The notes under the pieces: model-generated
Told to the model about the DNA's origin: nothing
Databases searched by the model: none
Seen by the model: the letters and a program-made list of their open reading frames with translations, nothing else
Source: Halobaculum gomorrense
GTDB taxonomy: Archaea; Halobacteriota; Halobacteria; Halobacteriales; Haloferacaceae
DNA length: 64,000 nucleotides
Reading direction: 5' to 3'
Assembly: GCF_900129775.1 (NCBI RefSeq)
Contig: NZ_FQWV01000006.1
Coordinates: 1-64,000, forward strand
In this document: positions 35,808 through 52,192 of the stretch, piece after piece
Position numbering within the stretch: the stretch's first letter is position 1
Layout: every line of letters begins with the position of its first letter
Translations under genes and position numbers: made by a program

Positions 35808-35885
35808 ATGGTATTCAAGAAGATTACACCTGCAAGATTACAACATTGTTATAACACTAGTCAGCCAATGTGGGTGTATGCCTGA
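35808..35885 (+). pseudogene. Severed 5' stub of the dodecin gene
   Basis: ATG GTA TTC AAG AAG AT is the original start of dodecin (MVFKKI). Element sequence takes over at 35,825 and the frame closes at TGA 35,883 after a 25-residue peptide (MVFKKITPARLQHCYNTSQP...). The intact remainder of the gene lies 16.2 kb away at 51,977. The stub is probably not functional. Confidence 0.85.
35809..35824 (+). repeat. attL core, 16-bp direct repeat
   Basis: TGGTATTCAAGAAGAT, identical to 51,978-51,993. On this side the preceding base is the A of the dodecin ATG, and the following bases (TACACC) belong to the element. Confidence 0.93.
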
Positions 35886-36309
35886 CCGAGACGACGGCCA
35901 AGAACACGAACACCAGCGACCTCCGGAGTGGTCCAGTGAAGAGGCATACCTCAACGTCCCATATGCCCACGATAAGGACGAAGAACACGAACTGAACGAT
36001 TCGGTACGTGTACGCCTCAACAAACGAACAAAGAAAGCCTGGCAGGACTACGTTGATGACCACCCAGAACACACTGGACTATCCACACTTGTGAGAGGCG
36101 CCGTGGCCAAAGAAATCAGTGGGAGGTACGATGAGGCCCAGCAAGACAACCAAGAGTTGGTAGACCTACTGTTAGAAATACAGAGAGCAGTAGAAACAGT
36201 CGGAGAAGAAGTGGAGCGCAGCTACCAGGAACAAATAGATTCCGACGAACTGCTAAGTGTGGTAAAGCAAGCTGTAGGTGTCAAAGAACGTGAGGAAGAA
36301 GATGGATGA
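35878..36309 (+). CDS. Ribbon-helix-helix regulator of the element
   Basis: A 143-residue protein starting MPDRDDGQEHEHQRPPEW. The central SVRVRLNKRTKKAWQDYVDDHP followed by TGLSTLVRGAVAKEI fits a ribbon-helix-helix DNA-binding fold: one beta strand, two helices, about residues 40-80. The second half is a long charged helix, likely coiled coil. It overlaps the integrase start by 8 nt, so it probably controls integrase expression or excision. TTGTTATAAC at 35,846-35,855 is a likely TATA box. Confidence 0.75.
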   Translation: MPDRDDGQEHEHQRPPEWSSEEAYLNVPYAHDKDEEHELNDSVRVRLNKRTKKAWQDYVDDHPEHTGLSTLVRGAVAKEISGRYDEAQQDNQELVDLLLEIQRAVETVGEEVERSYQEQIDSDELLSVVKQAVGVKEREEEDG

Positions 36310-37258
36310 AGCAACTCTCGAAGTGATGGCCGCAGCAAACGACGAGGATTTAAATGAAATCATTGACGACCTCACGCACTTCACCCCTGAAGAACTCAGA
36401 GACGAGATGGACAGATATCTCCTCAGTATAGGTAATCGCAAACGGAACAGAGATTCTACTAACATCCAGCACTTTATTGACTGGATGGCTAAAAATAACA
36501 TAGAATCTGTTTCCGACCACGAGATTAGAATGTATATCAGAGATAAAGTTGAAGAAGGATATGCTAAAAACACATTAAAATCTCATTACTATAGTATTGT
36601 CAACTTTTCCGATGATAGGTTATCCGCAGTATCCACATCGTTGATACGAGATGTGAATTGGTCAGATACCGTAGATTCGTTTACTGATGATGAGGAACAA
36701 AAAGGACGCTTGGGGAAAGGAGTACGGCCCATCACAGAGTCAGAAAAGGACGCCATGAGAGAAGTCGCTTCGGCTCGAAATGAATTACTAACAGAATTAC
36801 TCTGGCAGACAGGTCTACGAGCAAAAGAAGCCGCAAATATAAAAATATCAGATATAAACCTGACTAGTAAAAATATTAAAGTCAAAACTGCCAAAAGAAA
36901 AAAGCACACCAGAGTTGTGTCCATTAATAACGAACTCTATTTCATGTTAGATGAATATCTAGATGTGACACGGCCTAAATATGGAAAATCAAGCAAATAC
37001 CTATGGGTGAGCAATAGCTCCGAGAAACCCCAGCCTCACAACCTCACAAGGTCGGTTCGTGAGCTTGCAGACGAGGCAGGGATTCAGGAATATGACGAGA
37101 TGCAAAACGGTGCTCAGAGAGCCCGAATCGCTGTTCACAGCTTCCGAAAAGCACTGGGCATACGGCTTGATGAGCAGGGAGCGAGTATGAAAGAGATAGC
37201 TGAAACACTCGGTCATTCTAACACAGGAAGTGTGAGCACATATCTCGATATTGATTAG
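36302..37258 (+). CDS. Tyrosine recombinase (integrase) of the element
   Basis: Site-specific recombinase of 318 residues expected to catalyse exchange at the dodecin att site. I use the ATG at 36302 because GTGAGGAAG lies just upstream; a GTG at 36278 is possible. It has an N-terminal core-binding SAM-like domain (about 40-110). The catalytic residues are all visible: Arg in TGLRAKEAANI (about 173), Lys in KTAKRKKHTR, HSFR (His 279, Arg 282), His in LGHSNTGS and the nucleophile Tyr 314 in STYLDID. The gene is intact and adjacent to attL. Codon use is A/T-rich, unlike the backbone. Confidence 0.93.
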   Translation: MDEATLEVMAAANDEDLNEIIDDLTHFTPEELRDEMDRYLLSIGNRKRNRDSTNIQHFIDWMAKNNIESVSDHEIRMYIRDKVEEGYAKNTLKSHYYSIVNFSDDRLSAVSTSLIRDVNWSDTVDSFTDDEEQKGRLGKGVRPITESEKDAMREVASARNELLTELLWQTGLRAKEAANIKISDINLTSKNIKVKTAKRKKHTRVVSINNELYFMLDEYLDVTRPKYGKSSKYLWVSNSSEKPQPHNLTRSVRELADEAGIQEYDEMQNGAQRARIAVHSFRKALGIRLDEQGASMKEIAETLGHSNTGSVSTYLDID

Positions 37259-37274
37259 GCTAGGGTGCTAAATT

Positions 37275-37485
37275 TAATAGGTGTTTAGGGGGTTGTTTAG
37301 GGGGTGAAAATCGCAGTACGGCAGTACTCTATAATACTTTTAATACTTTTTTCATAGAGGGTGTATTATAGAGAGAGTCAGAGCTGATTACATCTCAAGC
37401 TCTATACATAGCTTGCTGTGGTTGGGAAAACCTATTAAAAGTATTAAATCACTTCGCCGTACTGCGATTCTTACCCCCTAAATGG
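37275..37485. other. Origin-like region with large palindromes and direct repeats
   Basis: The 306-bp gap between integrase and rep genes is A/T-rich and strongly structured. ATCGCAGTACGGC (37310-37322) is an exact inverted copy of 37456-37468. Outside it, TTTAGGGGGT on the left (two direct copies, 37283-37293 and 37295-37305 with one extra base) mirrors ACCCCCTAAA (37473-37482) on the right. Inside, CTCTATAATAC (37327-37337) is the inverse of 37363-37373, and TAATACTTT is repeated. This looks like a replication origin or iteron set for the Rep encoded next to it, and possibly a rep operator. Confidence 0.6.
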
Positions 37486-37564
37486 GTATTAAATAGGTAT
37501 TGCAATCTAGTATGTAAAGGTTGCCTAACACTTATTACCCTTCGATGTTAACATATGTATACAG

Positions 37565-37720
37565 ATGAGTAGTAACCAAACAAAACATGTACGAATATCT
37601 GAGAGTAGTATAGAAACGCTGCAAGCAATTCAAGAAACCACGCCTGGAGAACCGAGCTTCAGGAGTCTAGCAGATGCAGCTATCGAACAATTGGCAGAAG
37701 AGATTAACAAAGGTGATTAA
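37565..37720 (+). CDS. Tiny RHH-like protein upstream of rep
   Basis: A 51-residue protein starting MSSNQTKHVRISESSIETL and ending EEINKGD, 3 nt before the rep ATG. A beta strand (KHVRIS) followed by SSIETLQAIQE and FRSLADAAIEQLAEEI fits a minimal ribbon-helix-helix protein of the CopG/Arc size class. In plasmids such proteins repress rep transcription to set copy number; that role is inferred from position between the origin-like repeats and rep. Confidence 0.65.
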   Translation: MSSNQTKHVRISESSIETLQAIQETTPGEPSFRSLADAAIEQLAEEINKGD

Positions 37721-37723
37721 AAT

Positions 37724-39853
37724 ATGTCTGCAGAAGGTGACACTAGTAATGATGTATCGCAGTTAAATAAAGATTCGGGAAGTCTTGTAGAAACGCTAGC
37801 GGAAGATGAAGGTTACCTCTCGACTATGATTATCGAGAGAGGTGAGCTACGTCCTTCGCACAGAGACGGAGTTTCAGATTTAGAGCAGTGGGCTAACGAT
37901 GCTAAGGACTACGCTGAGGAACACGGTGCTTCGCTCGATGAGGCGCGAGAGATGTTCGTCTCTGTTGATGCTGTTGACTCATATGATGACGATGAGCTTG
38001 CGGACACATGGACTGACCTCATTGAGAGCGAGAAAGATAACATGAGCTGGTTGAATGCGTCGTACACTGACTATATCCCTGACGGTCTCGACACAGACCT
38101 ACGTGTGCGTGATAACACGTACGGTGTCATCGAAATCGACTATGACAACGATGAGCTACCTGGTGGCATCAAAGAGTTCGAGCCAGTCACATCCTTTGTG
38201 CTAGATGTGCAGGAGTTTGTCGAAAATACACAATCTGGCGAACTGGAGATTCGTATGGAAGTGATTCCTGATTCTGGTGAAGAGTCGTTCAGTGTAACTG
38301 TCTCACCTCGTGTATTCAACGACCCTCGCTCGTTCCGTGAGGAAGTTTGTATCGGGCTCACGACAACGTTCAGTGGGACTCCTGACGATTTGAACGAACT
38401 GCGTCAGGTCGTTGGTCAGCAAGCAGCTGAACACGTCCAGGGCCACACTACGGTCGGTCTGCACGACGGCGTGATGGTCACACCGGAGGGAGTCATAGGT
38501 GGTAGTTGCTGGACGGATTTCCGTAACAGTCACACGTACCTCGATACTGGCCAAAATATCAATGACAAGTGGGCTCTTGATGTCGATGGTTCGGACGGTG
38601 AGTTCGACTTCCATAACGTCGCTGAAGTGCTTGAACTGATTGTTGAGAGTCGTTCTGATACGGAGCGTTTCGTCCCTGCTCTCGGGTGGTGGATGGCGTC
38701 GCTGGTCGCACCGAGTATCCGAGCATGGGAAGGTGAGTTACCTTCGGTCATGGTGTCTGGCGACACTGGTGTGGGTAAGTCGTCGTTCCTTCAGACACTA
38801 AGCAAGCTGACCGGCTTGAATGGCTCTCCTGGGTCAGCTAAAGACACTAGTTTCGCTCTCATCAAAGGGATGGCCTCAACGAATAACGTCCCCGTCTGGT
38901 TCGATGAGTACAAACCATCTGACATGCGTGCATATCAAGTCGACAACTTGCAGGACCTCCTCAAAAAGAACACTCGTTGTGGGGGTGAGACACGCGGAAA
39001 TGCTGACCAGACGACGACGAACTATAGGCTAACTGCACCTGTGATATTCAGTGGCGAACAGAGTATACAGGGTAGCGCCGAGGAGAGACGTATGATTCGG
39101 ACACAGCTAACGAAGCCTGAAGGTACTAATAAAGCGTATGCTCGATTGCTCGGTGGTTCGTACACAGAGCATGGTCAAGTCACATACTCAGACGGAGCTG
39201 ATTTCGAAGACGCTGCGACAGCTCTCTGGCAGTGGATTGTGGACAATCCTCCTTGCACGACTAACGAAGCATGGCAAGATGCTCAGAGTGCTGTCTACAC
39301 CGTCCTCGAAGAGCACAACATAGCTGGTGTTGATGACTTGGAGCTTACTGCTCTGACGATGATTCAGTTCGGGATGAATATGTACTTCAAACTAGGCGCG
39401 AAGTTCAATGCAGACTTGTGCGTGGGTGAGAACGACGTTGAAGACGCACTGGTGTACATCGGTTCGAAGATGGGTCAGGAGAGTCGTACGTCACACCTCG
39501 ATGAGTTTGTTAGCCTCACTTCCACGCTCGTACGAAAGGGTCGGCTTGTAGAAGATGAAGAGTACCGGGTGATGGATTCGGGTGAAGTTCGTCTTCGGAT
39601 TGATGATGTGCACCACGAGCTCTCTCGTTACGTCAAGGACTACGACTTGGACAGCTACGACCTACTGAACTCACCGAGAGACTACAAAAACCGACTGCGT
39701 GACGCATTCGACGACGATGACCACTACGCTACACAAAAAGCTACACCAGACCACGTTATCGGAAATTCGTATTGCTTCGATGCTCATGATGCTGCAGACC
39801 AAGTGGATGGATTCGAGCTCGGGGCGTTCGTTGAGGAGTCTGACTGGGACTAG
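37724..39853 (+). CDS. Replication-type AAA+ ATPase (Rep) of the element
   Basis: A 709-residue protein with a central P-loop ATPase: Walker A VSGDTGVGKSSF (about 344-355), Walker B VPVWFDEYK (about 389-397), a sensor segment TAPVIFSGEQS and an Arg-finger-like SAEERRMIRTQL. It resembles the DUF927/superfamily-3-like helicases of plasmids and viruses more than MCM. The N-terminal 300 residues are not recognised and may hold an origin-binding or primase part. The C-terminal 150 residues (from SHLDEFVSL) recur in a second truncated copy downstream. Its place next to repeated palindromes supports a role in element replication. Confidence 0.72.
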   Translation: MSAEGDTSNDVSQLNKDSGSLVETLAEDEGYLSTMIIERGELRPSHRDGVSDLEQWANDAKDYAEEHGASLDEAREMFVSVDAVDSYDDDELADTWTDLIESEKDNMSWLNASYTDYIPDGLDTDLRVRDNTYGVIEIDYDNDELPGGIKEFEPVTSFVLDVQEFVENTQSGELEIRMEVIPDSGEESFSVTVSPRVFNDPRSFREEVCIGLTTTFSGTPDDLNELRQVVGQQAAEHVQGHTTVGLHDGVMVTPEGVIGGSCWTDFRNSHTYLDTGQNINDKWALDVDGSDGEFDFHNVAEVLELIVESRSDTERFVPALGWWMASLVAPSIRAWEGELPSVMVSGDTGVGKSSFLQTLSKLTGLNGSPGSAKDTSFALIKGMASTNNVPVWFDEYKPSDMRAYQVDNLQDLLKKNTRCGGETRGNADQTTTNYRLTAPVIFSGEQSIQGSAEERRMIRTQLTKPEGTNKAYARLLGGSYTEHGQVTYSDGADFEDAATALWQWIVDNPPCTTNEAWQDAQSAVYTVLEEHNIAGVDDLELTALTMIQFGMNMYFKLGAKFNADLCVGENDVEDALVYIGSKMGQESRTSHLDEFVSLTSTLVRKGRLVEDEEYRVMDSGEVRLRIDDVHHELSRYVKDYDLDSYDLLNSPRDYKNRLRDAFDDDDHYATQKATPDHVIGNSYCFDAHDAADQVDGFELGAFVEESDWD

Positions 39854-39920
39854 TTCTATACTCTGTTTTGTTATTGAAATCTAGTCGTTCTTATTTTTCA
39901 GTCAATCGCTATTTGTCTGT

Positions 39921-40169
39921 ATGGACCTCACTCGTAGAACACTCTACAAGCTCGTAGGATTGTCTGTGCTCCCTTTCCCTGTCGACCGTGACACCTACGA
40001 CGTATCTGAACACTCATGGCATCTGGAGAGGGTTAGCGAAGATTCAGACACGTTACGCATCGTGTTCAACAAGCGCACTGCTATACCCGATATCGAATTC
40101 AGTGAGGGTGTCGTAATCGGTGGCGCTGCCGGTCACTGGACTTACTGTAGATACTCCGACCGACGATGA
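39921..40169 (+). pseudogene. Truncated Tat-signal-like small gene (copy 1)
   Basis: Encodes 82 residues starting MDLTRRTLYKLVGLSVLPFP, clearly related to the 110-residue product at 41.2 kb over the first 75 residues (SWHLERVSEDSD... ending GGAAGHWT). After GHWT the similarity stops abruptly and the frame ends in YCRYSDRR. The break coincides with the start of rep-like sequence in another frame. So this is copy 1 of a duplicated gene, cut by a deletion. It may still be translated. Confidence 0.7.
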
Positions 40170-40578
40170 ATGGAGAAATTCGTGGGATGATGTCGTTAAC
40201 TCGATGGGTTCCAGTCAACGAATTTCTCACTTAGATGAATTCTTCACGTTGTTCGCAAGAGCACGACAGCAAGGGTTCATAGGTTCAGAACAAGGCTGGA
40301 GGACAATGGGTGATGGAGATGAGATTCGACTCAAGTTCTCCGAGGTCTTCCCTATCCTACGCAAATTCGTTGTTGAATACGATGTTGCTGATATTGACCT
40401 CTTGGACTCTCACAATGCCTACAAGCAGCGCGCTCGGGACGAACAGGGGACACACCCTTACGCTCTAGGGAGCATCAAAGACGGCGTTCTAAACAGGTGT
40501 GACAGGTTCGATGTTGGGTTGCTCGAACAGAACGTGGATGAGTTTGATTGGGCTGATGTCAAGGAGAGGGATTACTGA
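40120..40578 (+). pseudogene. C-terminal fragment of a second rep gene
   Basis: From about 40,133 this frame encodes a relative of the Rep C-terminus: ISHLDEFFTLFARARQQG against TSHLDEFVSLTSTLVRKG, then EIRLKFSEVFPILRKFVVEYD, IDLLDSHNAYKQRARD and a final DRFDVGLLEQNVDEFDWAD. The ATPase core is absent. The GTG at 40,120 lies inside copy 1 of the small gene, so the 152-residue open frame is a fusion created by deletion. A residual regulatory function cannot be excluded. Confidence 0.75.
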
Positions 40579-40650
40579 TTTCGATACTGTATATGAATTC
40601 CACTACAGACCTCGCAAACATTTTAGTTGTTTTAGTTCGTATTCTAACAT

Positions 40651-40881
40651 ATGGTTGGTACCGAAGCAGATAGACGAGAGATAGTACAGTATTTAATCAA
40701 TAAACTCGACCGTGAAGGCGAGTTCTTTACGCGAAGTAAATATATCGGTTCTGAACTCGGGATGAGTCCTCACAAAGTGGGAGCAGAGATTGGTCAAATT
40801 GATTGGGAGTCTCAAGAAGTCGAATTGGAAGCGTGGTCGAAGTCCCGATGCGCTACTTGGTTGGTTAAGAAATCTTCTTAG
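40651..40881 (+). CDS. Small winged-helix-like protein (DUF7123-like)
   Basis: A 76-residue protein starting MVGTEADRREIVQYLINKLDREGEFF. Its pattern, helix, then RSKYIGSELGMSPHKVGAEIGQI (helix-turn-helix-like), then beta strands ELEAWSKSRCATWLV, is that of small haloarchaeal winged-helix proteins; I recall the name DUF7123 but cannot verify it. Such proteins are common on haloarchaeal plasmids near replication genes. Separate from its neighbours by 58-70 nt. Confidence 0.68.
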   Translation: MVGTEADRREIVQYLINKLDREGEFFTRSKYIGSELGMSPHKVGAEIGQIDWESQEVELEAWSKSRCATWLVKKSS

Positions 40882-40939
40882 TTATTTTCGCGTCTATTGT
40901 ACCTGAAAGTATATAAGGGAGCGGTGGTTATTGTTGGGT

Positions 40940-41101
40940 ATGGTGGCACACATAAACCAGGAAGAACTCGATGAGATTGCACGGCGCTTAGACCAACTCG
41001 CATCCGGCGATTCAGGACCCTCAGAGCCGAGTGAGGATACTCGCGCTCGGTTGGCCCTCGAACACAATTCGGGGGTCTTCTGGTGGGACGCTGAAGCCTA
41101 G
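40940..41101 (+). CDS. Small acidic protein, 53 residues
   Basis: MVAHINQEELDEIARRLDQL opens a short helical protein, then an acidic linker and RLALEHNSGVFWWDAEA. TATATAAGG (40,911-40,919) lies about 25 nt before the ATG, a good leaderless promoter. The stop TAG is followed by TTCTATTCTCCG, nearly the same sequence that follows the rep stop at 39,853, so the boundary lies in the duplicated module. Function unknown; antitoxin- or regulator-like size. Confidence 0.55.
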   Translation: MVAHINQEELDEIARRLDQLASGDSGPSEPSEDTRARLALEHNSGVFWWDAEA

Positions 41102-41144
41102 TTCTATTCTCCGTTTATTTTTGCAAATCTAGTCAGTCGTTCAT

Positions 41145-41158
41145 GTAGACTTGTCTAC
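41145..41158 (+). promoter_or_regulatory. Inverted repeat before copy 2 of the Tat-like gene
   Basis: GTAGACTTGTCTAC is a perfect 6-bp dyad with a 2-bp spacer, 15 nt before the ATG at 41,173. A further half-site GTAGATATGTCTGC follows. A regulator bound here would cover the predicted transcription start. Confidence 0.45.
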
Positions 41159-41172
41159 GTAGATATGTCTGC

Positions 41173-41505
41173 ATGGAACTGACCAGACGCACCTTACACA
41201 AGCTCGTAGCATCGTCTGTACTCGCTTTTCCTCCGGCGCGTGACTCGTACAACCCCAAAGAGAAATCGTGGCATCTCGAACGCATTAGCGAGGATTCTGA
41301 ATTCGTACGTATCGTGTTCACCCACAGAAGAGCAGTACCTCCCGAAGAGGTCGATGCAGGAGTGGTTGTGGGAGGAGTCGGTGGCCAGTGGACAGTCACT
41401 CTACACGACCACACTGAGAGTACTACGCAGACGCACGACCACGCAGACCTTTGGCTGGCGTTACATACTGCTCACAACATTATGCAGGATGTTGAAAAAG
41501 AGTAG
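41173..41505 (+). CDS. Small protein with Tat-like signal (copy 2, full length)
   Basis: A 110-residue protein starting MELTRRTLHKLVASSVLAFP. TRRTLHK fits the Tat consensus (S/T-R-R-x-F/L-L-K), and a short hydrophobic stretch with a possible cleavage site after AFP follows. The body is SWHLERISEDSEFVRIVF... and the C-terminal part LHDHTESTTQTHDHADLWLALHTAH is rich in His, a possible metal site. The truncated relative is at 39.9 kb. Export by Tat is inferred from the motif only; the hydrophobic region is short, so it could be cytoplasmic. Confidence 0.6.
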   Translation: MELTRRTLHKLVASSVLAFPPARDSYNPKEKSWHLERISEDSEFVRIVFTHRRAVPPEEVDAGVVVGGVGGQWTVTLHDHTESTTQTHDHADLWLALHTAHNIMQDVEKE

Positions 41506-41687
41506 CTTGGCACCATTGAAATTTCTACCGAGAAACATATTCTTGAACTCGTACCGACAACGGAGCGTGAATCTGTCTTAATACCCAAGAGTCGTTCGGC
41601 AGCATGCCAGATGCCAAGCAACCATCAGCATGGGCGTAAATACTCGGCAATCAGAACTCATTCAGCATGTTCAGCAATTCTACCTCG

Positions 41688-42344
41688 TCACATGTCGACC
41701 GGGCTAACGCTTTGATTTCCTGTATACATTTGAGTTACCTTCTCAGCCCCGACTTTCGCCGTTATACGACCTGGACCTGCCTCAATTGAGGTGGGATTAT
41801 AGCAGACAATCGCATTCAGGGCGGGGCTCAAATCATTAGTCACAGACCAGTCAGCGTCAATTGCATTTCCACATATCTCCACGACATCCAATTCCTGAGA
41901 AAATTGTAAGAGTTCATTTTGTGGCTTTGATGTATGGATAGTCCCGAGTAAGATACTATCTGAAATTGGGTAAACTGTGATTAGAGATGCACCACAATCG
42001 CTCAGCATTTTTATTGTCTGTTGGAGGGAATATGGTGGCCGCTCTGATTCTATTTCGGACATAACAGACATGGCAGTTCTGAAAGCTTCCTCTGGCGAAT
42101 CCGTATGTTCCTGAACCAGACTCGGGCCGTCGACGAAACCGTAATGCCCGTAAGAACCCTCTGAGCCCTCCACAACAATACCCCCAGAATCCTGAGCGAT
42201 AATCCGAATTTGGAAAGCCGAATCGCTTGACATACCACACAGTACTATCCGGTCACTTTCAGATTTTGGCTCGTTAATTAGCCAACCGCTCTCAGATATA
42301 CCCGTACTATTCAGCTCGTCATAGATGTATTCTATCGAATTCAT
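41688..42344 (-). CDS. Hypothetical cargo protein
   Basis: A 218-residue soluble protein starting MNSIEYIYDELNSTG (ATG at 42344; a TTG one codon upstream is possible). Segments such as IVLCGMSSDSAFQIRIIAQDSGGIVVEG and VEICGNAIDADWS suggest an alternating beta/alpha fold. No catalytic motif, membrane helix or zinc site was recognised. It lies immediately beyond the restriction-modification block in the same direction, but 207 bp of A/T-rich sequence separate it, so it has its own promoter. It could be an accessory defence protein; only position suggests that. Confidence 0.55.
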   Translation of the reverse strand: MNSIEYIYDELNSTGISESGWLINEPKSESDRIVLCGMSSDSAFQIRIIAQDSGGIVVEGSEGSYGHYGFVDGPSLVQEHTDSPEEAFRTAMSVMSEIESERPPYSLQQTIKMLSDCGASLITVYPISDSILLGTIHTSKPQNELLQFSQELDVVEICGNAIDADWSVTNDLSPALNAIVCYNPTSIEAGPGRITAKVGAEKVTQMYTGNQSVSPVDM

Positions 42345-42554
42345 CAATTAATGATAGTAAATAGTGTAATATAAATTTAAGTGTTTTCTGAGTAGCGCAG
42401 ACAAACAAGAACCCAAAATAAGCAGGATAGACTACTGATTCAAGAATATGTTCTCCTTTGTGACACTCAGCACCTAGAACTATTTCATCGTCGGAAGGAA
42501 CTCCAACGTTCGCCATCGAAACTTTGGGTATGTTTCTGCCACTATAGTCAGAAA

Positions 42555-43271
42555 TTAGACAGCAAGCGTGTTGCCATTCACCCGAAGCCACTCTCGCCTG
42601 TCGCGATAATCCGGGACGAGCGTACCGACCGTGTTCCAGAACGCGTCAGAGTGTTCTTCGTGCCTGAAATGGGCGAGTTCGTGGGCGACGACGTAGTCCT
42701 GTATTTTCCGAGGGGCAAGTATGAGACGCCAGTGAAGCACCACTTCTCCCGGTCGATACTCACCCCATCGGCGCTGGAGTGCCTGTACCCTGATGTCTAC
42801 GTCGGCTAGTCCTAACTTGTCGATATACCGGTCTGCACGTGAGGGGAGTGTTTCAGTCGCTTTCTCTACGTACCAGTCAGTGACCGCTTGGCGTTTGCGC
42901 CTGACGCTGACCGGCGAGTCGTTCGGAACCCGGAGCTCAAACCGCGTTCCATCGAAGTCGAGTTTCGGCTCCGGCACGTCGTCTTCATACACTTTGAGCC
43001 GATACCGCCGCCCGTTGTAGAGGAGCTTCTCCCCACTCAGGTACTCCTTGTCGAGAGGTGGGTCTTCCTGCTCGGCGAGGCCGTAGAGGGTCTCCAGTAT
43101 CCACTGCTTCTTCTCCTCCAACACGTCTCCCACGTCCTCAATGGAAGCCTCCACGGGCGCACGGACTACGAGCTCCATCGAGGAGTCCATCGAGAGTCCG
43201 ATAGTCGAGCGGTCCGGGCTCCACTCGACTTCATACGGGACCACCGTCTGCCCGATATGATACTCTCTCAT
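42555..43271 (-). CDS. DUF45/YgjP-type metallopeptidase of the restriction block
   Basis: A 238-residue SprT-like metallopeptidase of the YgjP/DUF45 family starting MREYHIGQTVVPYEVEWS. The zinc motif VVAHELAHFRHEEHSDAFW gives HExxH plus the downstream His (about 190-205). RRWGEYRPGEVVLHWRLILAP just before it is the usual DUF45 block (W-G-x3-x-G-x-I-x-L-x-W-x-L). The start overlaps the hsdR stop by ATGA. DUF45 genes often accompany type I restriction genes; they may process or turn over HsdR, but this has not been shown. Confidence 0.88.
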   Translation of the reverse strand: MREYHIGQTVVPYEVEWSPDRSTIGLSMDSSMELVVRAPVEASIEDVGDVLEEKKQWILETLYGLAEQEDPPLDKEYLSGEKLLYNGRRYRLKVYEDDVPEPKLDFDGTRFELRVPNDSPVSVRRKRQAVTDWYVEKATETLPSRADRYIDKLGLADVDIRVQALQRRWGEYRPGEVVLHWRLILAPRKIQDYVVAHELAHFRHEEHSDAFWNTVGTLVPDYRDRREWLRVNGNTLAV

Positions 43272-46240
43272 GGCTGGTAGTGGGCACGCGCCAGTTCGAC
43301 GATGCGGTTCGTGAGCTCGGTTCGCTCCTCCCCCGACATCTGTATGTCGGCCTTCATCAGTCGCAGCTTCACCCGCTTCCGGAGCTTTTGTTGGACAGTG
43401 ACCTTCTCCTGCCATTCGACCACATCGGCGACATCCTCCACCTCGGCAATGATATCGCCCGTCAACTCGACGAGTTCCTGCTGGTCGGTGTCGTGGTCCT
43501 CAGTGAGAAGGACCTCTTCGAGCGCGTGGTAGAACGACAGTTCGGTGGCGTCCTCCAGACCCTTCGCCTTGGCCTGCTGGTCGCGTGTCCGCATCTCATC
43601 AAGTACCTCACGAAGCTCTTCGATGATTTCGCGGTCGTTCAGCCGTTTCTGTTTGTACTTCTCAATGAGTTCCTCAACGCGCTCCTGTAACGACTCGTAC
43701 TGAACGGGGTCCTCGTCGTACCGGACGGATATCTCGTGCTTGATTGCGTGTTGCATCTCGCTCGCACGGGCTTCGTCGCTCTCTAGGCCTTCAAGTTCAG
43801 CATCGAACTCGTCGCCCTCCATTATCGACACCGGGTCGTCGTTGAGTACGTCGATGCCCTTCGAGCGGATGTGCTTCTGGATGAGCTCGCGCACCTTCTC
43901 GCCGGTGCCCTCCAGATTCATCGAGTCGTCACGATAGCGTTGCTTCGCCCTCGCGTAAATCTCGCTCAGGCGGTCGAGGTCGCCCTTGTATGGGTTCGCC
44001 ATCGGATTAGGCAGCACGATGTCCATCAGCTTGGAGAACCGCTTGTAGGCGTTCTTGAACTCGATACGCGTGTCCTCGTCTTCGAGCGTCTGCAGACACG
44101 CCTCCATATCGTCGAGGTCGTCGAAGAACGACTTCGCCTTCCGATGGGCAGCTTCGAGCTCAGGCTTCTTGTCCTCCAGCGGGACCATCGCGTGCTTCAC
44201 GTCGTCCTCGCTAAACATCGCCAACGCCTCGCGGAGGTCGTCAGAGACACCGTAGTAGTCGACGATGAGGCCGTGATTTTTCTCCGGGAACGGCCGATTG
44301 ACACGGGCGATAGCTTGTAGAAGACTATGCTCTTTCAGCGGTTTGTCGAGGTACATCACCTGCGCCACCGGTGCGTCGAACCCCGTGAGGAGCATATCAC
44401 AGACAACGAGCAGTTCGACCTCACCCTCTGGGTCGACGAACGAGTCCTTGTACTCCGAAATCTCGCTGTCCGTCGGCGTCCACTCCTTGATGTGCTCCGG
44501 GTCGTTGTGACCCTTCGAGATGACGACCCGCGATTCAGGGCCGTTCAGCTCGTCGAGCTTCTTCTTGTAGCGGACGGCGGCCTCCTTGCTGGTCGTGACG
44601 ACCATCCCCTTGAACTGGTCGGCGATTTCGTCCTCGTAGTGCTCGATGATGTCGAGAGCGACTTCCTCGACACGTGTCTCAGCTTCGGCAAGGTCCTGCT
44701 CGCGGGCATACCGCTTCTTGATTTCTGCCTTCTCCTCGTCGGAGTAGTCGGCGAACACGCGGTCGAAGATGCGGTCGAGATTCGCTCCTTCGAGGTGGAT
44801 GTCCGCGAGGCGGCCCTGATAGAGGATTTCGACCGTGGTGTCGTCGTCGAGCGACTGGTCGATGGTGTACGTGTCGATGTAGTTCCCGAACGCCCGACGG
44901 GTGTCGCGTTCCTCTTTCTCGATAGGTGTCCCCGTGAACCCGATGTAGTAGGCGTTGGGGAGTGCGGTCCGCATATTGTTCGCGAGCGTCGCGTACTGCG
45001 TCCGGTGGGCCTCGTCGACCATCACGAAGATGTCGTCATCACTGGAGAGGACCGGGAAGTCACCCTCCTCGTCATCGTCAAGCTGGAACTTCTGGATGAG
45101 AGTCGTGATGGTCTCCCCGGCGTGGCTGCTCAGTTTCTCACGAAGGTCCTCTTTGTCCTGCGCCCGCTTCGGGTTCGGGAAGCCGCACCGCTGGAACGTG
45201 GCGTGTATCTGGCTGTCGAGAGCCGTTCGGTCAGTAACGAGCAGCAGTGTCGGGTCAGGTTTCTCACGGCGGAGCTTTAGCCCGAGAAAGAGCATCGTGA
45301 GCGACTTGCCAGAGCCCTGCGTGTGCCAGACGACTCCGCCCTGTGCTTCCCGACGGCTCCGATGGTCAATACGCTCCAAGGCCTTCTGAACCGCTCGGTA
45401 CTGCTGATACCGAGCGACCATCTTCACGGTCCCGCTCTGCTTGGTCTCGAAGACCGTGAAGTGACGGAGTTGGTCGAGGAGACGCTCAGGCTCGAAGAGT
45501 GCGTAGAGCATCCGATGCTGTGGAGACACGTAGTCGATATCGAAGAGCTCGGCGAGCTCGTCGTCATCCGCCGGGTACGTGTCGCGCCACGGTTTGTACT
45601 GGCTCTTGGGTGTCCCGTACGTTCCCATCACCGCGCCTTCGTACCACGTCGCGACCGAGAACTGATTGTAGCGGAAGAGCTCGGTCGCCCCTTCGCTCCC
45701 GGTCTCGGTACGTTCGTTCTGGTATCGTTGGAGCTGTTCGAGAGCCTCGCTTTTCGGTTCCGCGATAGTTGGAGCCTTGCACTCAATGACACCGAGCGGG
45801 ATGCCATTGACGAAGAGCGTGATGTCGGGCTTGATAATCTCGATGTCGCCTGCTACGTCGAACTGGCTGAGCGCGAAGAAGTCGTTGTTCTCCGGGTTCT
45901 CGAAGTCAATGTACTTGACCGTCTGGTGTTTCGTGCCGTGACCCCGGTCCTGTTTTACTGACGTGTGGCGAACGAGCTTCTCGTGTATCTGCTCGTTCTC
46001 GTCCATCGGACTCGTCCCGGCAACCTGCTGAATTTCACGGACGACTGCATTCAGGTTGTTATCTGAAAGCAACGGATTTAGACGAGAGACAGCATTACCC
46101 AGCCGGGGTTCGAGTACAGCCGAGGACTTGGTGTCCCGTGGGTCTTGCCAGCTGGCGTCTTGCTGGTCGGAAATCTCCCAACCAAGAGTCTGAAGCGATT
46201 CGAGTGCTGGCCCTTCGGTCTCGGTGTACTCGTCGCTCAT
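43268..46240 (-). CDS. hsdR: Type I restriction enzyme, R subunit (HsdR)
   Basis: Motor and nuclease subunit, 990 residues, full length. The N-terminal nuclease domain shows PDITLFVNGIPLGVIECKAP (Asp ... Glu-x-Lys, about 138-157). The SF2 translocase has Walker A TQGSGKS (about 306-312), VDEAHRTQ (about 406-413), TGTP and the helicase C-lobe motifs MLLTGFDAP and QAIARVNRPF. The long helical C-terminus binds HsdM/HsdS. With HsdM and HsdS it cuts unmethylated foreign DNA after translocation. It lies 3 nt after hsdS; no frameshift is visible, so the system should be active. Confidence 0.96.
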   Translation of the reverse strand: MSDEYTETEGPALESLQTLGWEISDQQDASWQDPRDTKSSAVLEPRLGNAVSRLNPLLSDNNLNAVVREIQQVAGTSPMDENEQIHEKLVRHTSVKQDRGHGTKHQTVKYIDFENPENNDFFALSQFDVAGDIEIIKPDITLFVNGIPLGVIECKAPTIAEPKSEALEQLQRYQNERTETGSEGATELFRYNQFSVATWYEGAVMGTYGTPKSQYKPWRDTYPADDDELAELFDIDYVSPQHRMLYALFEPERLLDQLRHFTVFETKQSGTVKMVARYQQYRAVQKALERIDHRSRREAQGGVVWHTQGSGKSLTMLFLGLKLRREKPDPTLLLVTDRTALDSQIHATFQRCGFPNPKRAQDKEDLREKLSSHAGETITTLIQKFQLDDDEEGDFPVLSSDDDIFVMVDEAHRTQYATLANNMRTALPNAYYIGFTGTPIEKEERDTRRAFGNYIDTYTIDQSLDDDTTVEILYQGRLADIHLEGANLDRIFDRVFADYSDEEKAEIKKRYAREQDLAEAETRVEEVALDIIEHYEDEIADQFKGMVVTTSKEAAVRYKKKLDELNGPESRVVISKGHNDPEHIKEWTPTDSEISEYKDSFVDPEGEVELLVVCDMLLTGFDAPVAQVMYLDKPLKEHSLLQAIARVNRPFPEKNHGLIVDYYGVSDDLREALAMFSEDDVKHAMVPLEDKKPELEAAHRKAKSFFDDLDDMEACLQTLEDEDTRIEFKNAYKRFSKLMDIVLPNPMANPYKGDLDRLSEIYARAKQRYRDDSMNLEGTGEKVRELIQKHIRSKGIDVLNDDPVSIMEGDEFDAELEGLESDEARASEMQHAIKHEISVRYDEDPVQYESLQERVEELIEKYKQKRLNDREIIEELREVLDEMRTRDQQAKAKGLEDATELSFYHALEEVLLTEDHDTDQQELVELTGDIIAEVEDVADVVEWQEKVTVQQKLRKRVKLRLMKADIQMSGEERTELTNRIVELARAHYQP

Positions 46241-46243
46241 AGA

Positions 46244-47548
46244 TTATGTCTCTACTTCGAGTCGACGAGTCCCAGTAAGGAGGTCCTGCATAATCCCCTG
46301 TTTGAGTTCTTGAAGCTCGCTTTTCTCGTCCTGCGCCACGTTAGTCAGTTTATTGGCACGATAGAATGCTTCAGAGATTTCTCTCTGCTCGTCAATTGGT
46401 GGGAGGAGAATCGGCATCGTCTGAAGGTCCGTTTTCGAAAGTTCAATCTGTCCAGTGGACCCGGCAACACAGAACGCGTACAACATCTTTTGGCCGTGGT
46501 TCGACTCAAGATAGAATCGAAGGTACGTTGGGTCAAGCACGGATTCATCAGGGTGGACACGAGTGATATGTGAGTCAAGCGCGTGAGTGTCGGACTCCTT
46601 GGTCCACTCCAATGCGCGACCGAGAGTTCCTTTTCCCGTCGAGTTGATTAGCACGTCACCATTCTTCACCCAGTATTTGTCCTTCCAACCAGACGCGACC
46701 TCACTATCAAGACGCTTCAGTGCCCCCAGATGAAACCCGTCCCAGTATATACACGATTGATTTAGCACGGGAACACCGCCCTCCTCAACGTACGTCGGCT
46801 GTTTTCCCCGGGTGATGATTTCACTCACTTCACTCAGCCGTGCCTTTCGCCACTCGGCTGGGACTTCGAGCTCCAGAGGCCCGAGATACTTTTGCTCGTA
46901 CGTGTCGTGATTAATGCCCTTAATCAGAAGGTCTTGCATTAATCCGTATTTTAGTTTCTTAGCCTGCTCAATCGCTTCGTCCGCCTCTTGAATGTCGTTT
47001 TCCACTGTCGAGAGCACGTCCGCGATACGGCGTCGCTCACCTTCGGGTGGAATCGGAACCGGCGTGGACTCCAAATCATCCCATGAGGTTCGGGGGAGGT
47101 TCGTACCTTCCATCGTGGAGACAACTCTATCACGAATAATCTTCGAGTGCATCAGATACGGTAAGTAGTTGTTTAGCGTACTGTCTTCAGCGTATATTGG
47201 TATAATATCTGAAGAGCAAATTCCATCAAATGGGGCAACCGCTGCCTTGTTTAGGTTTGGCCGGAGCTTACCGAACAGTACATCGCTTTCCCTGAACACG
47301 CGTGAACTGCTCCGGCCTCTACCGTCTTCGTCATAGCCCGCAATATCTAATTCACCACTATTGATATGTTTGAGCCCGATGTACTTGACCGGCTCCCCTT
47401 CCTCATCGCTAATGGATTCACTCCTTCTGTGGAACACCTCACCGAATTGTCTTACACTCCAGTCGTTTGGGACGACAAGCGTCTTCGGGCCGAACTCTAC
47501 CTCTCGGTAACCACCGGGGCTATCCGTGGTTCCCAGTGTCTCCTTCAT
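46244..47548 (-). CDS. hsdS: Type I restriction enzyme, specificity subunit (HsdS)
   Basis: DNA-recognition subunit, 434 residues, with the two-fold plan of HsdS. Target-recognition domain 1 is at about 30-180, followed by the spacer helix IADVLSTVENDIQEADEAIEQAKKLKYGLMQDLL (by position, about 185-220). Domain 2 is at about 235-390, followed by REISEAFYRANKLTNVAQDEK and ELKQGIMQDLLTG. Each domain would read one half of a bipartite recognition site; the sequence recognised cannot be predicted. It overlaps hsdM by ATGA. The variable recognition domains are A/T-richer than the flanking genes, as expected for exchanged modules. Confidence 0.95.
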   Translation of the reverse strand: MKETLGTTDSPGGYREVEFGPKTLVVPNDWSVRQFGEVFHRRSESISDEEGEPVKYIGLKHINSGELDIAGYDEDGRGRSSSRVFRESDVLFGKLRPNLNKAAVAPFDGICSSDIIPIYAEDSTLNNYLPYLMHSKIIRDRVVSTMEGTNLPRTSWDDLESTPVPIPPEGERRRIADVLSTVENDIQEADEAIEQAKKLKYGLMQDLLIKGINHDTYEQKYLGPLELEVPAEWRKARLSEVSEIITRGKQPTYVEEGGVPVLNQSCIYWDGFHLGALKRLDSEVASGWKDKYWVKNGDVLINSTGKGTLGRALEWTKESDTHALDSHITRVHPDESVLDPTYLRFYLESNHGQKMLYAFCVAGSTGQIELSKTDLQTMPILLPPIDEQREISEAFYRANKLTNVAQDEKSELQELKQGIMQDLLTGTRRLEVET

Positions 47549-49134
47549 CGATAATTCAGCTCTTCCATGTATTCTGCCAACTCTGCTTCTGTCTTCTCAC
47601 GCTTCTCTGCGAGTCTATCCAACTCAGCTAGCTTCTCACTGACGTTGATTTCCTCTTCTGGTTCTGTCGTGTCCACGTATCGAGGGACGTTGAGATTCCA
47701 GTCGTTCTCCGCAATTTCGTCCATCTCAACAAGTCGACTATGATGTGGCTCCTCGCGTCCTGTCAGAAACGTCTCCGCGATGTATTCAACACCCTCACTG
47801 GTCAACTGGTTTTGACTCGACAGTTCTTCAAATACCTGAGCCCCGGATTTCCGGAGTTTCTGGTCTTCTGCATATATGAATAGAACCTTGTTCTTGCGTT
47901 CTTCTGGCTTATTCTTATTGAATATGAGGAGGCATCCCGGCGAGGAGGTATTATAAAACAAATTCTCCGGGAGAGCGATTACCGCCTCGATAAGGTCGTC
48001 TTCAAGGAACGGTTTGCGAATCTTCTTTTCAGACCGTGAGCGGAACAATGTGCCGTTGTCCATGACGATACCGGCCTTTCCCTGCTCAGACAATGAGGCG
48101 ACCATCAGCTGAATCCACGCCCAATCGCCACGGTTCGACGGTGGGAGGCCATAGGGGAATCGATTATATGGCTCGTTTTCCTGAACCCAGTCTTTCGCCC
48201 ACTTCTTGTCGTTCCAAGGGGGGTTGGCGACGACGCGGTCGAACACTTCCAGCTCGTCATGCTCGGTAACGAACTTCGTCTCTGTAATGGTGTCTCCCTT
48301 TGCGATAGTCGCGTCCTGCAGCTCGTGCAGGAGAACGTTCATCTGACCGATGGCCCACGTATTCAGATTCTTCTCCTGCCCGTAGAGCGAGATATCGTCT
48401 CGGTTGCCACCTTCGTCCTCAACGTGCTGGGCGGAGTAGACGAGCATTCCACCGGACCCACAGGCGGGGTCGTACACGCGGTCGCCGGGCTCGGGGTCAA
48501 CGCACTCGACGAGAAGCTGGACGACCTCGCGGGGCGTGTAGAACTCTCCGCCCTTCTTGCCGGCGTCGTCGGCGAACTGCCGAATGAGGTACTCGTACGC
48601 CCGCCCGAAGATATCGGGGTCATCGAGGTCCGCGTTCCGGTAGCGGTGCTTCGAGAAGTGCGTGACGAGCTCTTCCAGCGTCGCGTCCGAGAGTCGGTCC
48701 TTGTCGTTGAAGTCGACAGAGGTGAGAACGCGGTCGGCGATGGCGTCGTTCTCGTCCTCGACCGCTTCGAGGGCCTTGTTCAGCGTCGCTCCGATGTCGC
48801 TGCTCTGCGCGGCGATGTGTCCCCAGCGAGCACGCTCGGGAACCCAGAACTCCTCGTGGAGGTCGCGGTCGCCTCGAATCTGTTCGAGAAGGTCTTCGTC
48901 CGGCTCCTCGTCGTCGCCGGTGAGTTCCTCGGCGATTTCCCACGTTTCCTCTTCGAATCGGTCGTTGATTCGCTTCAGGAAGAGCAGCCCGAAGATGTAG
49001 TTCTTGTAGTCCGCCGCGTCGATACTTCCACGGAGAATATCCGCCGCCTCCCAGAGGTGAGATTCCAGCGTGTCGAGTTCGAGAGTCTCCCCGGCCTCGG
49101 TATACTGGAGGAGGCTCTCGTCTTTAGAAGCCAT
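47545..49134 (-). CDS. hsdM: Type I DNA methyltransferase subunit (HsdM)
   Basis: N6-adenine methyltransferase of 529 residues. The N-terminal helical HsdM domain (about 25-175: LWEAADILRGSIDAADYKNYIFGLLFLKRI) is followed by the methylase. Motif I is VYDPACGSGGML (about 219-230) and the catalytic motif IV is VANPPWND (about 300-307, NPPW). FYTPREVVQLLVE is the conserved lead-in. With HsdS it protects host DNA. First gene of the minus-strand operon hsdM-hsdS-hsdR-DUF45; the promoter must lie in the 182-bp gap before the gene at 49,317. Confidence 0.96.
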   Translation of the reverse strand: MASKDESLLQYTEAGETLELDTLESHLWEAADILRGSIDAADYKNYIFGLLFLKRINDRFEEETWEIAEELTGDDEEPDEDLLEQIRGDRDLHEEFWVPERARWGHIAAQSSDIGATLNKALEAVEDENDAIADRVLTSVDFNDKDRLSDATLEELVTHFSKHRYRNADLDDPDIFGRAYEYLIRQFADDAGKKGGEFYTPREVVQLLVECVDPEPGDRVYDPACGSGGMLVYSAQHVEDEGGNRDDISLYGQEKNLNTWAIGQMNVLLHELQDATIAKGDTITETKFVTEHDELEVFDRVVANPPWNDKKWAKDWVQENEPYNRFPYGLPPSNRGDWAWIQLMVASLSEQGKAGIVMDNGTLFRSRSEKKIRKPFLEDDLIEAVIALPENLFYNTSSPGCLLIFNKNKPEERKNKVLFIYAEDQKLRKSGAQVFEELSSQNQLTSEGVEYIAETFLTGREEPHHSRLVEMDEIAENDWNLNVPRYVDTTEPEEEINVSEKLAELDRLAEKREKTEAELAEYMEELNYR

Positions 49135-49316
49135 ACTGCCACCATGTGCTATCTGCCGTTTATCTCTTTCTGGTGCAATTGTGGACTCCAGCAGTTGGAC
49201 CCCTTCTACATTTTCTTGAACGGTGTCGCGCCCGTGTTGTTTGACTAGCTGCTGATTGAGGCTGAAATATAATTAAAAGCATATACTTATGTTATTTGCT
49301 CCCACATTTGAACAGT

Positions 49317-49583
49317 ATGGGAATTGATATTGAAGAACTCATGGAATCAGACGGAGAAGGGATTATTGTTTCAATAAACGAAGCTCCGTGGGACGATGAG
49401 TCAGGCACAATTAGCTATTCTGCGAAGTTTGAAAAGTTAGATGAAATGCCTGGAGACATTTCGAAGAAGCTGAGTCGTGAATTGGATGTTGAAAATCGCA
49501 GGGGAGAAGTGGGTCGTATCGTCAAACGTAATGACTCACTCGTATTTGAGGACTCAGAATTCGAGCGAACGATAAAGCTGTAA
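49317..49583 (+). CDS. Small hypothetical protein
   Basis: An 88-residue protein starting MGIDIEELMESDGEGIIVSIN. Beta-rich with charged loops, ending VKRNDSLVFEDSEFERTIKL. No motif recognised. Divergent from hsdM, with A/T-rich sequence (TATAATTAAAAGCATATAC) between them that may serve both promoters. An inverted repeat CTCGGATTTGTTGTCCGAG just after the stop could be a terminator. Confidence 0.5.
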   Translation: MGIDIEELMESDGEGIIVSINEAPWDDESGTISYSAKFEKLDEMPGDISKKLSRELDVENRRGEVGRIVKRNDSLVFEDSEFERTIKL

Positions 49584-49752
49584 GCTCCAACTCGGATTTG
49601 TTGTCCGAGAATAACCTATTCTTGCACAGTTTAGTTCCATAGAGTCGTCTAAATCGAATTTTATAGCCGTGAGTGTGGGGGTAAACGTCCTCACAGACAA
49701 ACGAATGTCGGGATTAATCTTATACTAGAGTAAAACAAACATAGTATTTACA

Positions 49753-50352
49753 ATGCAAATAGAACCATATCCTAGCAAAGATGGATTCAGATGCTGGTTA
49801 AATCCTAGTGAAGAAGCACTACTACTTGAACAAGTCGAAGAAGAACCTGAAAAAGACCTCGCACTCCGTTCCATGCTACACGGTCTGCGCGCCGACGAAT
49901 TGGAACATGTTTGTACAGACAATCTAAGAGAACTCGACAGCGAAGATTCGGCGTACAAACTTCGAGTGCGAAGTGGAAAAACTGGTTGGAGAGAAGTTCC
50001 TGTTTCTACAGAACTGGTGCAGCGTATGAAGATGTTGAAGAACGTGAGAAGCGCGCACGCTGATGAAGAGCTCATATCTGTGCACAAAGGCTCGGTGCAG
50101 CGTTGGGTGCGAAACATCGCGCAAGACCTCGCAGAGACACACAACGACGATTGGCAGTACTTGACTGCACACGACCTACGGCGTACGTGGGCGACTCGGA
50201 CCTATTACGCGCTCGACTCGCACCACGCTGTCGACCTCATAATGAGATGGGGAGGATGGGACTCGCGCGATGTGTTCACACAGAATTACTTGGGCAGGGA
50301 AAGCGACGAGATGGCTGCCTCGATGATGCAGTCACTCGGGATGCTCGGCTAA
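49753..50352 (+). CDS. Second tyrosine recombinase, catalytic domain only
   Basis: A 199-residue recombinase of the phage-integrase family without an N-terminal core-binding domain. Catalytic residues: Arg 46 in LHGLRADELEHV, Lys 76 in SGKTGWRE, His 140 and Arg 143 in AHDLRRTWATR, Trp 169 in WGGWDSRDV in place of the second His, and Tyr 179 in FTQNYLG. Small integrases of this type are frequent in haloarchaeal viruses and plasmids. It is intact, lies about 1.6 kb from attR and may resolve multimers or act on another site; which recombinase does the dodecin reaction is not settled by sequence. Confidence 0.85.
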   Translation: MQIEPYPSKDGFRCWLNPSEEALLLEQVEEEPEKDLALRSMLHGLRADELEHVCTDNLRELDSEDSAYKLRVRSGKTGWREVPVSTELVQRMKMLKNVRSAHADEELISVHKGSVQRWVRNIAQDLAETHNDDWQYLTAHDLRRTWATRTYYALDSHHAVDLIMRWGGWDSRDVFTQNYLGRESDEMAASMMQSLGMLG

Positions 50353-50487
50353 GTTTTGAAATTTACAGTTTTCACAAAGCCAATTTAACACTCTCTGGTA
50401 GATTAGACACTCTCAATTCACATACCAGATTAACGTTTTTGACAGTGCTAAACCCCTTAGCGACACCTCTCAAGGGACCCCCACTGA

Positions 50488-51060
50488 CTACGAAACCACT
50501 CTATAAAATAAAAGAAACACCAGACCCATCCAACAGAGACGAACAGCGAAAAATATGTAAGAGCGACCCCAGCGCGCCGGTAAACTAGCGATTAGAAAAG
50601 GCGAGACCAGGGCGAGAGCGATGATAGAAGAAATTGGATTAGAATAGCTCAGGGAATCAGTTACGCAGCGACAGTCAGCGTGAGAAGGTAGACTGTGCAA
50701 GGAGAGTTCATACCCAAACACCAGCAGTGCCAGACTCAATAGAAAACCAGAGAGAGACCACGAGAAGTACCTTACAGCAGAAGAGAGCAACAGCCCGGAT
50801 GGGATACTCAAAGCGACGGGTGCACAACAAATCACCAACGACTGCAACGGGGTCCTCTCATCGAGCCTCAGCTGATACGCAGTACCAGATGTGTTCCAAC
50901 CTAAATCTGTATACTCGATACCCAGGGCGCGCGCACATGTCTTGTGTGTGAACTCATGCGAGAGTAGGGCAAACAACGAGATATGGCACCACGCGAGCCA
51001 GAGCGCGCCACCAACCAACCCCAAAATTACCAACAGCCCCCAGAAGACCCACCCGAACAC
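50488..51060 (-). CDS. Membrane protein with HExxH motif (putative intramembrane-type metalloprotease)
   Basis: A 190-residue protein from a GTG at 51060, with five hydrophobic segments. The second segment leads into SLFALLSHEFTHKTCARALG, an HExxH zinc-protease motif at the membrane face, followed by IEYTDLGWNTSGTAYQL. That layout recalls M50 or DUF3267-type proteases, but the usual second motif with Asp was not identified. The gene ends the minus-strand trio with two zinc-related small genes. Role in the element unknown; cleavage of a membrane-bound regulator would be one possibility. Confidence 0.6.
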   Translation of the reverse strand: MFGWVFWGLLVILGLVGGALWLAWCHISLFALLSHEFTHKTCARALGIEYTDLGWNTSGTAYQLRLDERTPLQSLVICCAPVALSIPSGLLLSSAVRYFSWSLSGFLLSLALLVFGYELSLHSLPSHADCRCVTDSLSYSNPISSIIALALVSPFLIASLPARWGRSYIFFAVRLCWMGLVFLLFYRVVS

Positions 51061-51064
51061 TCTA

Positions 51065-51274
51065 TCAAAAATTACGATGCTCTCTACAATTGGGGCACCA
51101 TCTCAGTGTACGACCACCGAGCCAACCCTTGCTCTTCGTCGGGAGCTCAGGATAGCACTCACCACAAACCCATCCTTCACACTCAGGGCATTGAGCAGGT
51201 TCAGCGTCAGGATTCTGATGCAGCCAGTGAGTTTCGACCTGCTCGCCACACTGCTGACAGTGCTCACCCGACAT
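51065..51274 (-). CDS. Small zinc-finger protein
   Basis: A 69-residue protein starting MSGEHCQQCGEQVETHWL (ATG 51274; a GTG one codon earlier would overlap the upstream stop by GTGA). It contains CQQC, then CPECEGWVCGECYPE and CPNCREH: four CxxC-type knuckles enough for two zinc ions. Middle gene of a three-gene minus-strand operon; 4 nt separate it from the membrane HExxH gene. Function unknown, nucleic-acid or protein binding likely. Confidence 0.65.
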   Translation of the reverse strand: MSGEHCQQCGEQVETHWLHQNPDAEPAQCPECEGWVCGECYPELPTKSKGWLGGRTLRWCPNCREHRNF

Positions 51275-51570: not shown

Positions 51571-51599
51571 GGAACACAATACACACGATTAGGATAAGT

Positions 51600-51615
51600 A
51601 CGACTGACTAGATTT
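51600..51615 (-). promoter_or_regulatory. Shared upstream motif of the element (third copy)
   Basis: On the minus strand this reads AAATCTAGTCAGTCGT, identical to 41,125-41,140, and ends 29 nt before the ATG at 51,570. A shorter form, AAATCTAGTC at 39,877-39,886, ends 34 nt before the gene at 39,921. Same orientation and similar spacing in all three indicate a common promoter or operator element. Confidence 0.6.
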
Positions 51616-51655
51616 CAGCACAGTTCCCTTAGGATTCTAATACATTCTTTTATGT

Positions 51656-51976: not shown

Positions 51977-52192
51977 GTGGTATTCAAGAAGATCACGCTC
52001 GTCGGCCGGAGCACTGAGGGGTTCGACGAGGCGACTGACGACGCGATCGACCGCGCGGAAGAGACGCTCGACGAGGTCCATTGGGTCGAGGTGACCGAAT
52101 TCGGCGTCGAGGTCGCCGCCGTCGAGGGGCGAGAGTACCAAGCGGAAGTCGAGGTGGCGTTCGAGTTGCAGCGGGCAGAACAACAGGAGTGA
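51977..52192 (+). CDS. Dodecin (flavin-binding), with start codon rebuilt by integration
   Basis: Dodecameric flavin-storage protein of 71 residues that sequesters riboflavin/lumichrome or FMN and protects the cell from photo-reactive flavin. [18 protein letters not shown] closely matches haloarchaeal dodecin. The flavin-stacking Trp 36 (DEVHWVEV) and hydrogen-bonding Gln 55 (REYQAEV) are present. The start is GTG here, while the original ATG with identical following bases lies at 35,808. The protein is thus intact, but its upstream region is now element DNA. The right att repeat covers codons 1-6. Confidence 0.93.
51978..51993 (+). repeat. attR core, 16-bp direct repeat
   Basis: TGGTATTCAAGAAGAT, identical to 35,809-35,824. 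Here it is preceded by G (giving GTG) and followed by CACGCTCG, the true continuation of dodecin. Confidence 0.93.

Follow-up and report, generated by a model that had tools for sequence, protein, structure and literature searches.

The nearest described systems to the locus studied here are the DUF927 helicases SaPIbov1 Rep and Cch, and the Sulfolobus plasmid pRN1. SaPI Rep proteins recognise iterons beside rep; they use the C-terminal domain for this, and two hexamers appear to be bound. The DUF927 helicase Cch is a relative of the SaPIbov1 Rep (PMC7581432). In pRN1, the orf56 and orf904 genes are accompanied by a stem-loop origin (PMC4234260). Fusions of DUF927 to primases have been described in general (PMC5862659). 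In Sulfolobus, the 'ucm' motif of oriC1 is bound by the nucleoid protein UBP, which also binds it at many other chromosomal sites (PMC12141716). Searching the open-licence literature, we found no description of the origin of a haloarchaeal replicon with such a primase-helicase Rep. The HRTV-DL1 virus paper names a primase-helicase, and a term search of it returned no iterons or inverted repeats.

We analysed a 64,000-nucleotide stretch of the Halobaculum gomorrense genome (contig NZ_FQWV01000006.1, positions 1 to 64,000), hereafter the window. The GC content, about 0.70, falls to 0.40-0.60 across 35.8-51.9 kb. The flanks of the attL and attR repeats (Table 1) are contiguous in 10 of 10 congeners, which thus carry an empty site, and they overlap by exactly the 16 bp in those congeners whose alignment spans the junction. 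Because of the 16-bp repeat and the contiguous flanks in all ten congeners, the island 35809-51993 (16,169 bp, 16.17 kb) is, by its sequence, an integrated element at the 5′ end of a dodecin gene (Pfam PF07311, E 3e-20). The rebuilt dodecin gene, for which position 51977 provides a GTG start, stays in frame; thus, the insertion exchanges the upstream region of the gene. From the left, the element carries a small ORF, the integrase gene, the dyad, a 51-aa ORF, rep and small genes; next come a type I restriction-modification operon, which is complete, and a second, short integrase gene. The operon (HsdR, HsdS and HsdM; 43268-49134) is cargo of the element. The second integrase (199 aa, 49753-50352) lies close to the right end, and the element may be composite or bear a remnant of another element. 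The Pfam scan detected no orc1/cdc6 gene among the scanned ORFs of the element.

Table 1. Features of the integrated element, with positions in the window and the evidence for each.
Feature	Position	Strand	Evidence
attL, 16-bp direct repeat TGGTATTCAAGAAGAT	35809..35824	+	exact match to 51978-51993
Tyrosine integrase, 326 aa	36278..37258	+	Pfam Phage_integrase, E 6.4e-25
Putative replication origin, whole inverted-repeat region	37272..37494	.	repeats, shuffles, DNA fold, recurrence in relatives
Left half-origin, 56-bp arm (outer G-run block, core box, two iterons)	37296..37351	+	82% identity to inverse of 37427-37482
Core box, left copy GAAAATCGCAGTACGGC	37306..37322	+	top-scoring box of locus, leave-one-out matrix
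Left iterons, two of 9 bp, TAATACTTT x2	37332..37349	+	9-bp period common to family
Right half-origin, 56-bp arm	37427..37482	-	82% identity to inverse of 37296-37351
Right iterons, two (inverse: TTTAATACT TTTAATAGG)	37427..37446	-	repeat and half-origin comparison
Core box, right copy AAGAATCGCAGTACGGC	37456..37472	-	half-origin alignment, leave-one-out matrix
51-aa ORF, RHH-like by eye, first gene of rep operon	37565..37720	+	sequence
Rep, DUF927-type initiator helicase, 709 aa, without relatives' N-terminal primase	37724..39853	+	homologue alignment, profile, fold match
Free-standing paralogue of Rep C-terminal domain, 152 aa	40120..40578	+	33% identity over 129 aa, E 3e-16
Small DUF7123-like protein, 76 aa	40651..40881	+	Pfam PF23438, E 2.7e-4, below curated cut-off
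attR	51978..51993	+	at 5′ end of dodecin gene 51977-52192; exact match to attL

An initial annotation had noticed nested palindromes between the integrase and rep genes and proposed a probable replication origin. All the repeats that it listed are present: the 13-bp ATCGCAGTACGGC at 37310-37322 and, exactly inverted, at 37456-37468, the mirrored flanking blocks TTTAGGGGG (37284-37292 and 37296-37304, a 12-bp tandem) and CCCCCTAAA (37474-37482), the 11-bp CTCTATAATAC (37327-37337, inverse at 37363-37373), and two copies of TAATACTTT with a 9-bp period. The extent of the dyad had been understated. Its arms are 56 bp long, matching at E = 2.5e-7 in a search within the genome, and an outer 22-nt pair (37272-37293 and 37473-37494) lies beyond them. 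The ungapped inverted-repeat score was 26; ten dinucleotide shuffles gave no score higher than 12, and no control 2-kb stretch in the surrounding 24 kb scored above 14. Folding the DNA of 37272-37494, a check that had been suggested, gave z = -7.8, with none of 200 shuffles folding as well. Shuffle scores, fold and control stretches thus confirm the dyad beyond chance. The inner 11-bp pair overlaps the iterons and may be incidental, and an inner AGAGGGGTGTA motif noticed by eye showed modest enrichment only (14 of 54 halves, control rate 0.044).

Alone in the Pfam scan, Rep matched generic AAA models only; neither DUF927 nor a primase was matched. It also matches phage primase families (best E 2e-11). 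Homologues at about 30-42% identity were present in 24 of 391 sampled haloarchaeal genomes (the window's own genome counted), in Natronococcus occultus plasmid 1 and in Halorubrum virus CGphi46. Pfam DUF927 was found in 9 of 27 aligned homologues, and several of the best viral-library matches to Rep were DUF927 proteins. The N-terminal part of the homologue profile, a part absent from the window Rep, matches NrS-1-type primases. The AlphaFold model of Rep is reliable only for residues 290-580 and of low confidence elsewhere (mean pLDDT 58.7); the top PDB match of this low-confidence model was the SaPIbov1 initiator 8tch (E 2.2e-8, prob 1.00), followed by MCM, and then by AsfvPrimPol and other ring helicases. 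Scanning viral contigs with peptide patterns, we obtained nothing from single proteins and only distant relatives from the alignment. No HUH-type Rep was encountered: the Pfam matches were of P-loop type only, and the structure model is an AAA+ helicase. The earlier description of Rep as AAA+ is therefore right but too general, as the profile and model matches place it more exactly with the DUF927/MCM-like helicases, its predicted fold being nearest to the SaPIbov1 Rep and MCM.

The 51-aa ORF had been counted as part of an origin architecture with copy control. No Pfam match was found for it, and its RHH-like label was given by eye only. A better candidate for a copy-control regulator is the product of 40120-40578. 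Being a paralogue of the C-terminal domain of Rep, this protein could act as a competitor at the iterons and so limit copy number. Two small ORFs similar to each other, 39921-40169 (MDLTRRTLYKLV...) and 41173-41505 (MELTRRTLHKLV...), lie on either side of this paralogue as a local duplication.

The dyad is single-copy in the genome and none of the 10 congeners was matched. Searching congeners, plasmids and phages at the DNA level, we recovered only the origin itself and chance matches, low-complexity or weak, to phages of other hosts. An automatic search then covered 2.5 kb on the upstream side and 1.5 kb on the downstream side of every rep gene and kept the top-scoring inverted repeat whose loop was longer than 30 nt; 2-kb stretches of the same loci served as controls. 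The initial annotation had tied its reading to the conservation of this region together with rep, and among the homologues a score of at least 16 was reached beside rep in 26 of 30 loci, compared with 4 of 128 control stretches. In 27 of the 30, no control stretch of the same locus equalled the picked score. The structure was not found near rep in three loci (L041, L054 and L063), and a fourth, L059, fell just under the threshold. What is conserved is therefore an architecture and not an alignable sequence: an inverted pair of iteron arrays with a box, directly upstream or downstream of rep. Most of the structures consist of tandem iterons in opposed orientation with differing sequences (TTTTACGGA, TGTTACGGA, TTTAACGGA, GTTCACTTC and others). 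In the hand-picked origins, exact repeats at lag 9 covered 512 bases (controls: 46) and no other lag exceeded 117; the automatically picked origins gave 462 bases at lag 9. The window iterons fit this family period. Natural replicons with the architecture include the virus CGphi46 (L068) and the plasmid pHTUR06, where it lies directly upstream of the primase-helicase gene (L217). Because the inverted iteron and box architecture recurs beside related rep genes, the origin reading is strongly supported, and 37272-37494 is very probably the replication origin of the element.

Other functions were weighed against the same data. The dyad ends about 70 nt upstream of the RHH/rep operon, and the box also occurs upstream of chromosomal genes, such as those of DUF7123 matches in 10 of 30 loci; the region could thus be the control region of the rep operon, an operator with terminator structure, and the box an ordinary transcription-factor site. 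We consider this unlikely, since several loci, CGphi46 among them, have the structure on the downstream side of rep, which excludes a role as the rep promoter, and the iteron arrays remain an inverted pair on either side. We give a similarly low likelihood to an origin extruded as a hairpin and read by its shape, as proposed for pRN1, instead of iterons read by sequence. The very strong predicted fold would suit such a hairpin, and pRN1 requires an intact 100-nt stem-loop beside its repressor-rep operon (PMC4234260). In the relatives, however, the pairing often involves the iterons only, with loops of 36 to 234 nt, and it is the 9-bp period and the box that are conserved, not the base pairing. 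The position directly 3′ of the integrase gene raised the question of whether the dyad holds arm sites for integrase recombination. This is very improbable: attL is 1.45 kb away, and since the position varies between upstream and downstream, the architecture tracks rep and not one promoter or integrase. A MITE or transposon remnant, whose terminal inverted repeats the 22-56 bp repeats around a short centre would be, can be dismissed almost entirely: the genome has a single copy, the congeners and plasmids gave no match and phages of other hosts no more than weak matches by chance, and the inner organisation recurs beside rep genes of different sequence.

We return to the region as an iteron origin. 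The usual unwinding element is AT-rich, as is the segment that separates the iteron sets in SaPIbov1-type origins. We had expected such a centre and, taking the family mean, did not find it (GC 0.54 vs 0.56 for the loci); the centre of the window origin has a GC of 0.41. In some GC-rich members, e.g. L068, an alternating G/C run (GCGCGCGCGTGCGCGC) lies between the half-origins. Iteron differences tracked differences in the Rep C-terminal domain beyond those of the helicase domain, with hand-called iterons and a partial r of 0.27 (a modest p of 0.029), compared with 0.04 for the helicase domain. This correlation weakly and indirectly supports recognition of the iterons by the C-terminal domain.

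Aligning the half-origins, we obtained a common 17-mer outside the iterons, GAAAATCGCAAGACGGC, of which the 13-bp arm is a part. Using leave-one-out matrices, we found the best box of the whole locus inside the origin in 19 of 27 loci, the window included. None of 228 control windows reached the score of the window box on either strand. The box was weak or missing in about a third of the loci. The 13-bp arm, which had been proposed as a search motif, does recur in haloarchaea as this box and is not specific to the element: the pattern AAAAYCGCANNACGGC occurred in 118 of 391 haloarchaeal genomes, against 8 for the reversed pattern. Of 40 pattern sites examined, most were intergenic with no Rep nearby, and we dropped the notion of a Rep-specific site after this genome-wide search. 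Sites of the pattern were seen near tRNA 3′ ends, upstream of integrase genes and upstream of DUF7123 genes (L112-L151; G041, G059, G070, G090, G116). We know of no described factor for this motif.

The box was also found with a different class of Rep. By BLAST, the D5-type helicases of the plasmid pHTUR06 and the virus HRTV-DL1 show no similarity to the window Rep, yet boxes adjoin both rep genes, in the full inverted arrangement in pHTUR06. Among 22 D5-type loci, which take in these two, an adjacent inverted repeat scoring at least 16 was present in 9, compared with 1 of 80 controls; the lag-9 peak appeared again, and the box density was three times as high beside rep as elsewhere. We tried RepH-like plasmid proteins (our own label, the L136 class) as a further class and rejected them, since only 1 of 21 had the inverted structure. 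At L136 itself, 8518-8773 shows the same inverted box arrangement with an inverted-repeat score of 22.

A box common to unrelated helicases would be best explained by a host protein. As judged from these occurrences, the box is a haloarchaeal host motif contained in the origins, often as two inverted copies, and it is probably a host-factor site, because it is spread across haloarchaea and stands at the origins of some unrelated D5-type Reps. More specifically, we tentatively suggest, with somewhat less than even confidence, that a conserved haloarchaeal host protein binds GAAAATCGCAAGACGGC, and that mobile elements with DUF927 and D5 Reps have taken this site into their origins, with two inverted copies in each. 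DUF7123, a small universal protein found in 145 of 145 genomes searched, is a speculative candidate for the binder, because the box (at least 13 of 16 matches) precedes the DUF7123 match by 81-117 nt in a third of the loci examined (10 of 30) and the element itself has a DUF7123-like gene.

These observations suggest how the element, if it continues to replicate, might do so. Excision would come first, and Rep, as a DUF927/SaPIbov1-Rep-type ring helicase, would then act at the origin. By analogy with the SaPI Reps, its C-terminal domain would contact the 9-bp iterons (TTTAATACT) in each inverted half-origin, Rep would assemble as two facing hexamers, and the DNA would melt between or within the AT-rich iteron tracts. 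Replication would begin bidirectionally with the host primase and polymerase; as the window Rep is without a primase, it would need that of the host. Each half also contains the conserved 17-bp box (GAAAATCGCAGTACGGC), which would offer another site, most likely one for a DNA-binding protein of the host. We consider this account, with the region as the origin at its core, to be highly likely. The repeats, the borders of the element, the recurrence beside rep in relatives, the box, the 9-bp period and the Rep fold match are observed; Rep binding, the double hexamers, the bidirectional start, the host factor and continued replication are inferred.

The inverted 9-bp iterons with a fixed box beside rep form a signature that could locate such origins in plasmids, viruses and integrated elements, and the short origin fragment could be used for shuttle vectors. 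Should the box prove to be a host-factor site, it would offer a direct route to a host protein that mobile elements need for replication, comparable to UBP in Sulfolobus. For such a reading, 'ucm' and UBP may serve as a precedent, although 'ucm' is an 11-bp motif of a chromosomal Orc1 origin in a different archaeal phylum (PMC12141716). The element resembles pRN1 in its small regulator gene followed by rep and in a long dyad as the origin (PMC4234260). The pRN1 ORF904 combines an N-terminal PrimPol with an SF3 helicase and its stem-loop lies downstream of rep, whereas here Rep is without a primase and DUF927/MCM-like, and the dyad is upstream. The phage P4 alpha protein, a helicase with a C-terminal winged-helix domain, is likened by description, being the initiator at an iteron origin; it differs in including a primase. 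P4 alpha is mentioned in the pRN1 literature (PMC4234260). With the SaPIbov1 Rep and the SCCmec Cch, the locus shares an initiator helicase of the DUF927 family with an MCM-like fold, an iteron origin next to rep and an integrative element. The SaPIbov1-type origin beside rep, with two opposed sets of short iterons, is found in the window and beside most related rep genes. The differences are the archaeal host, the 9-bp iterons, origin centres that by the family mean are not AT-rich, the position upstream of rep and the additional 17-bp box, a host motif. An iteron origin with a self-loading helicase is a known kind, and the locus would be a haloarchaeal variant of it with the host box as an added component.
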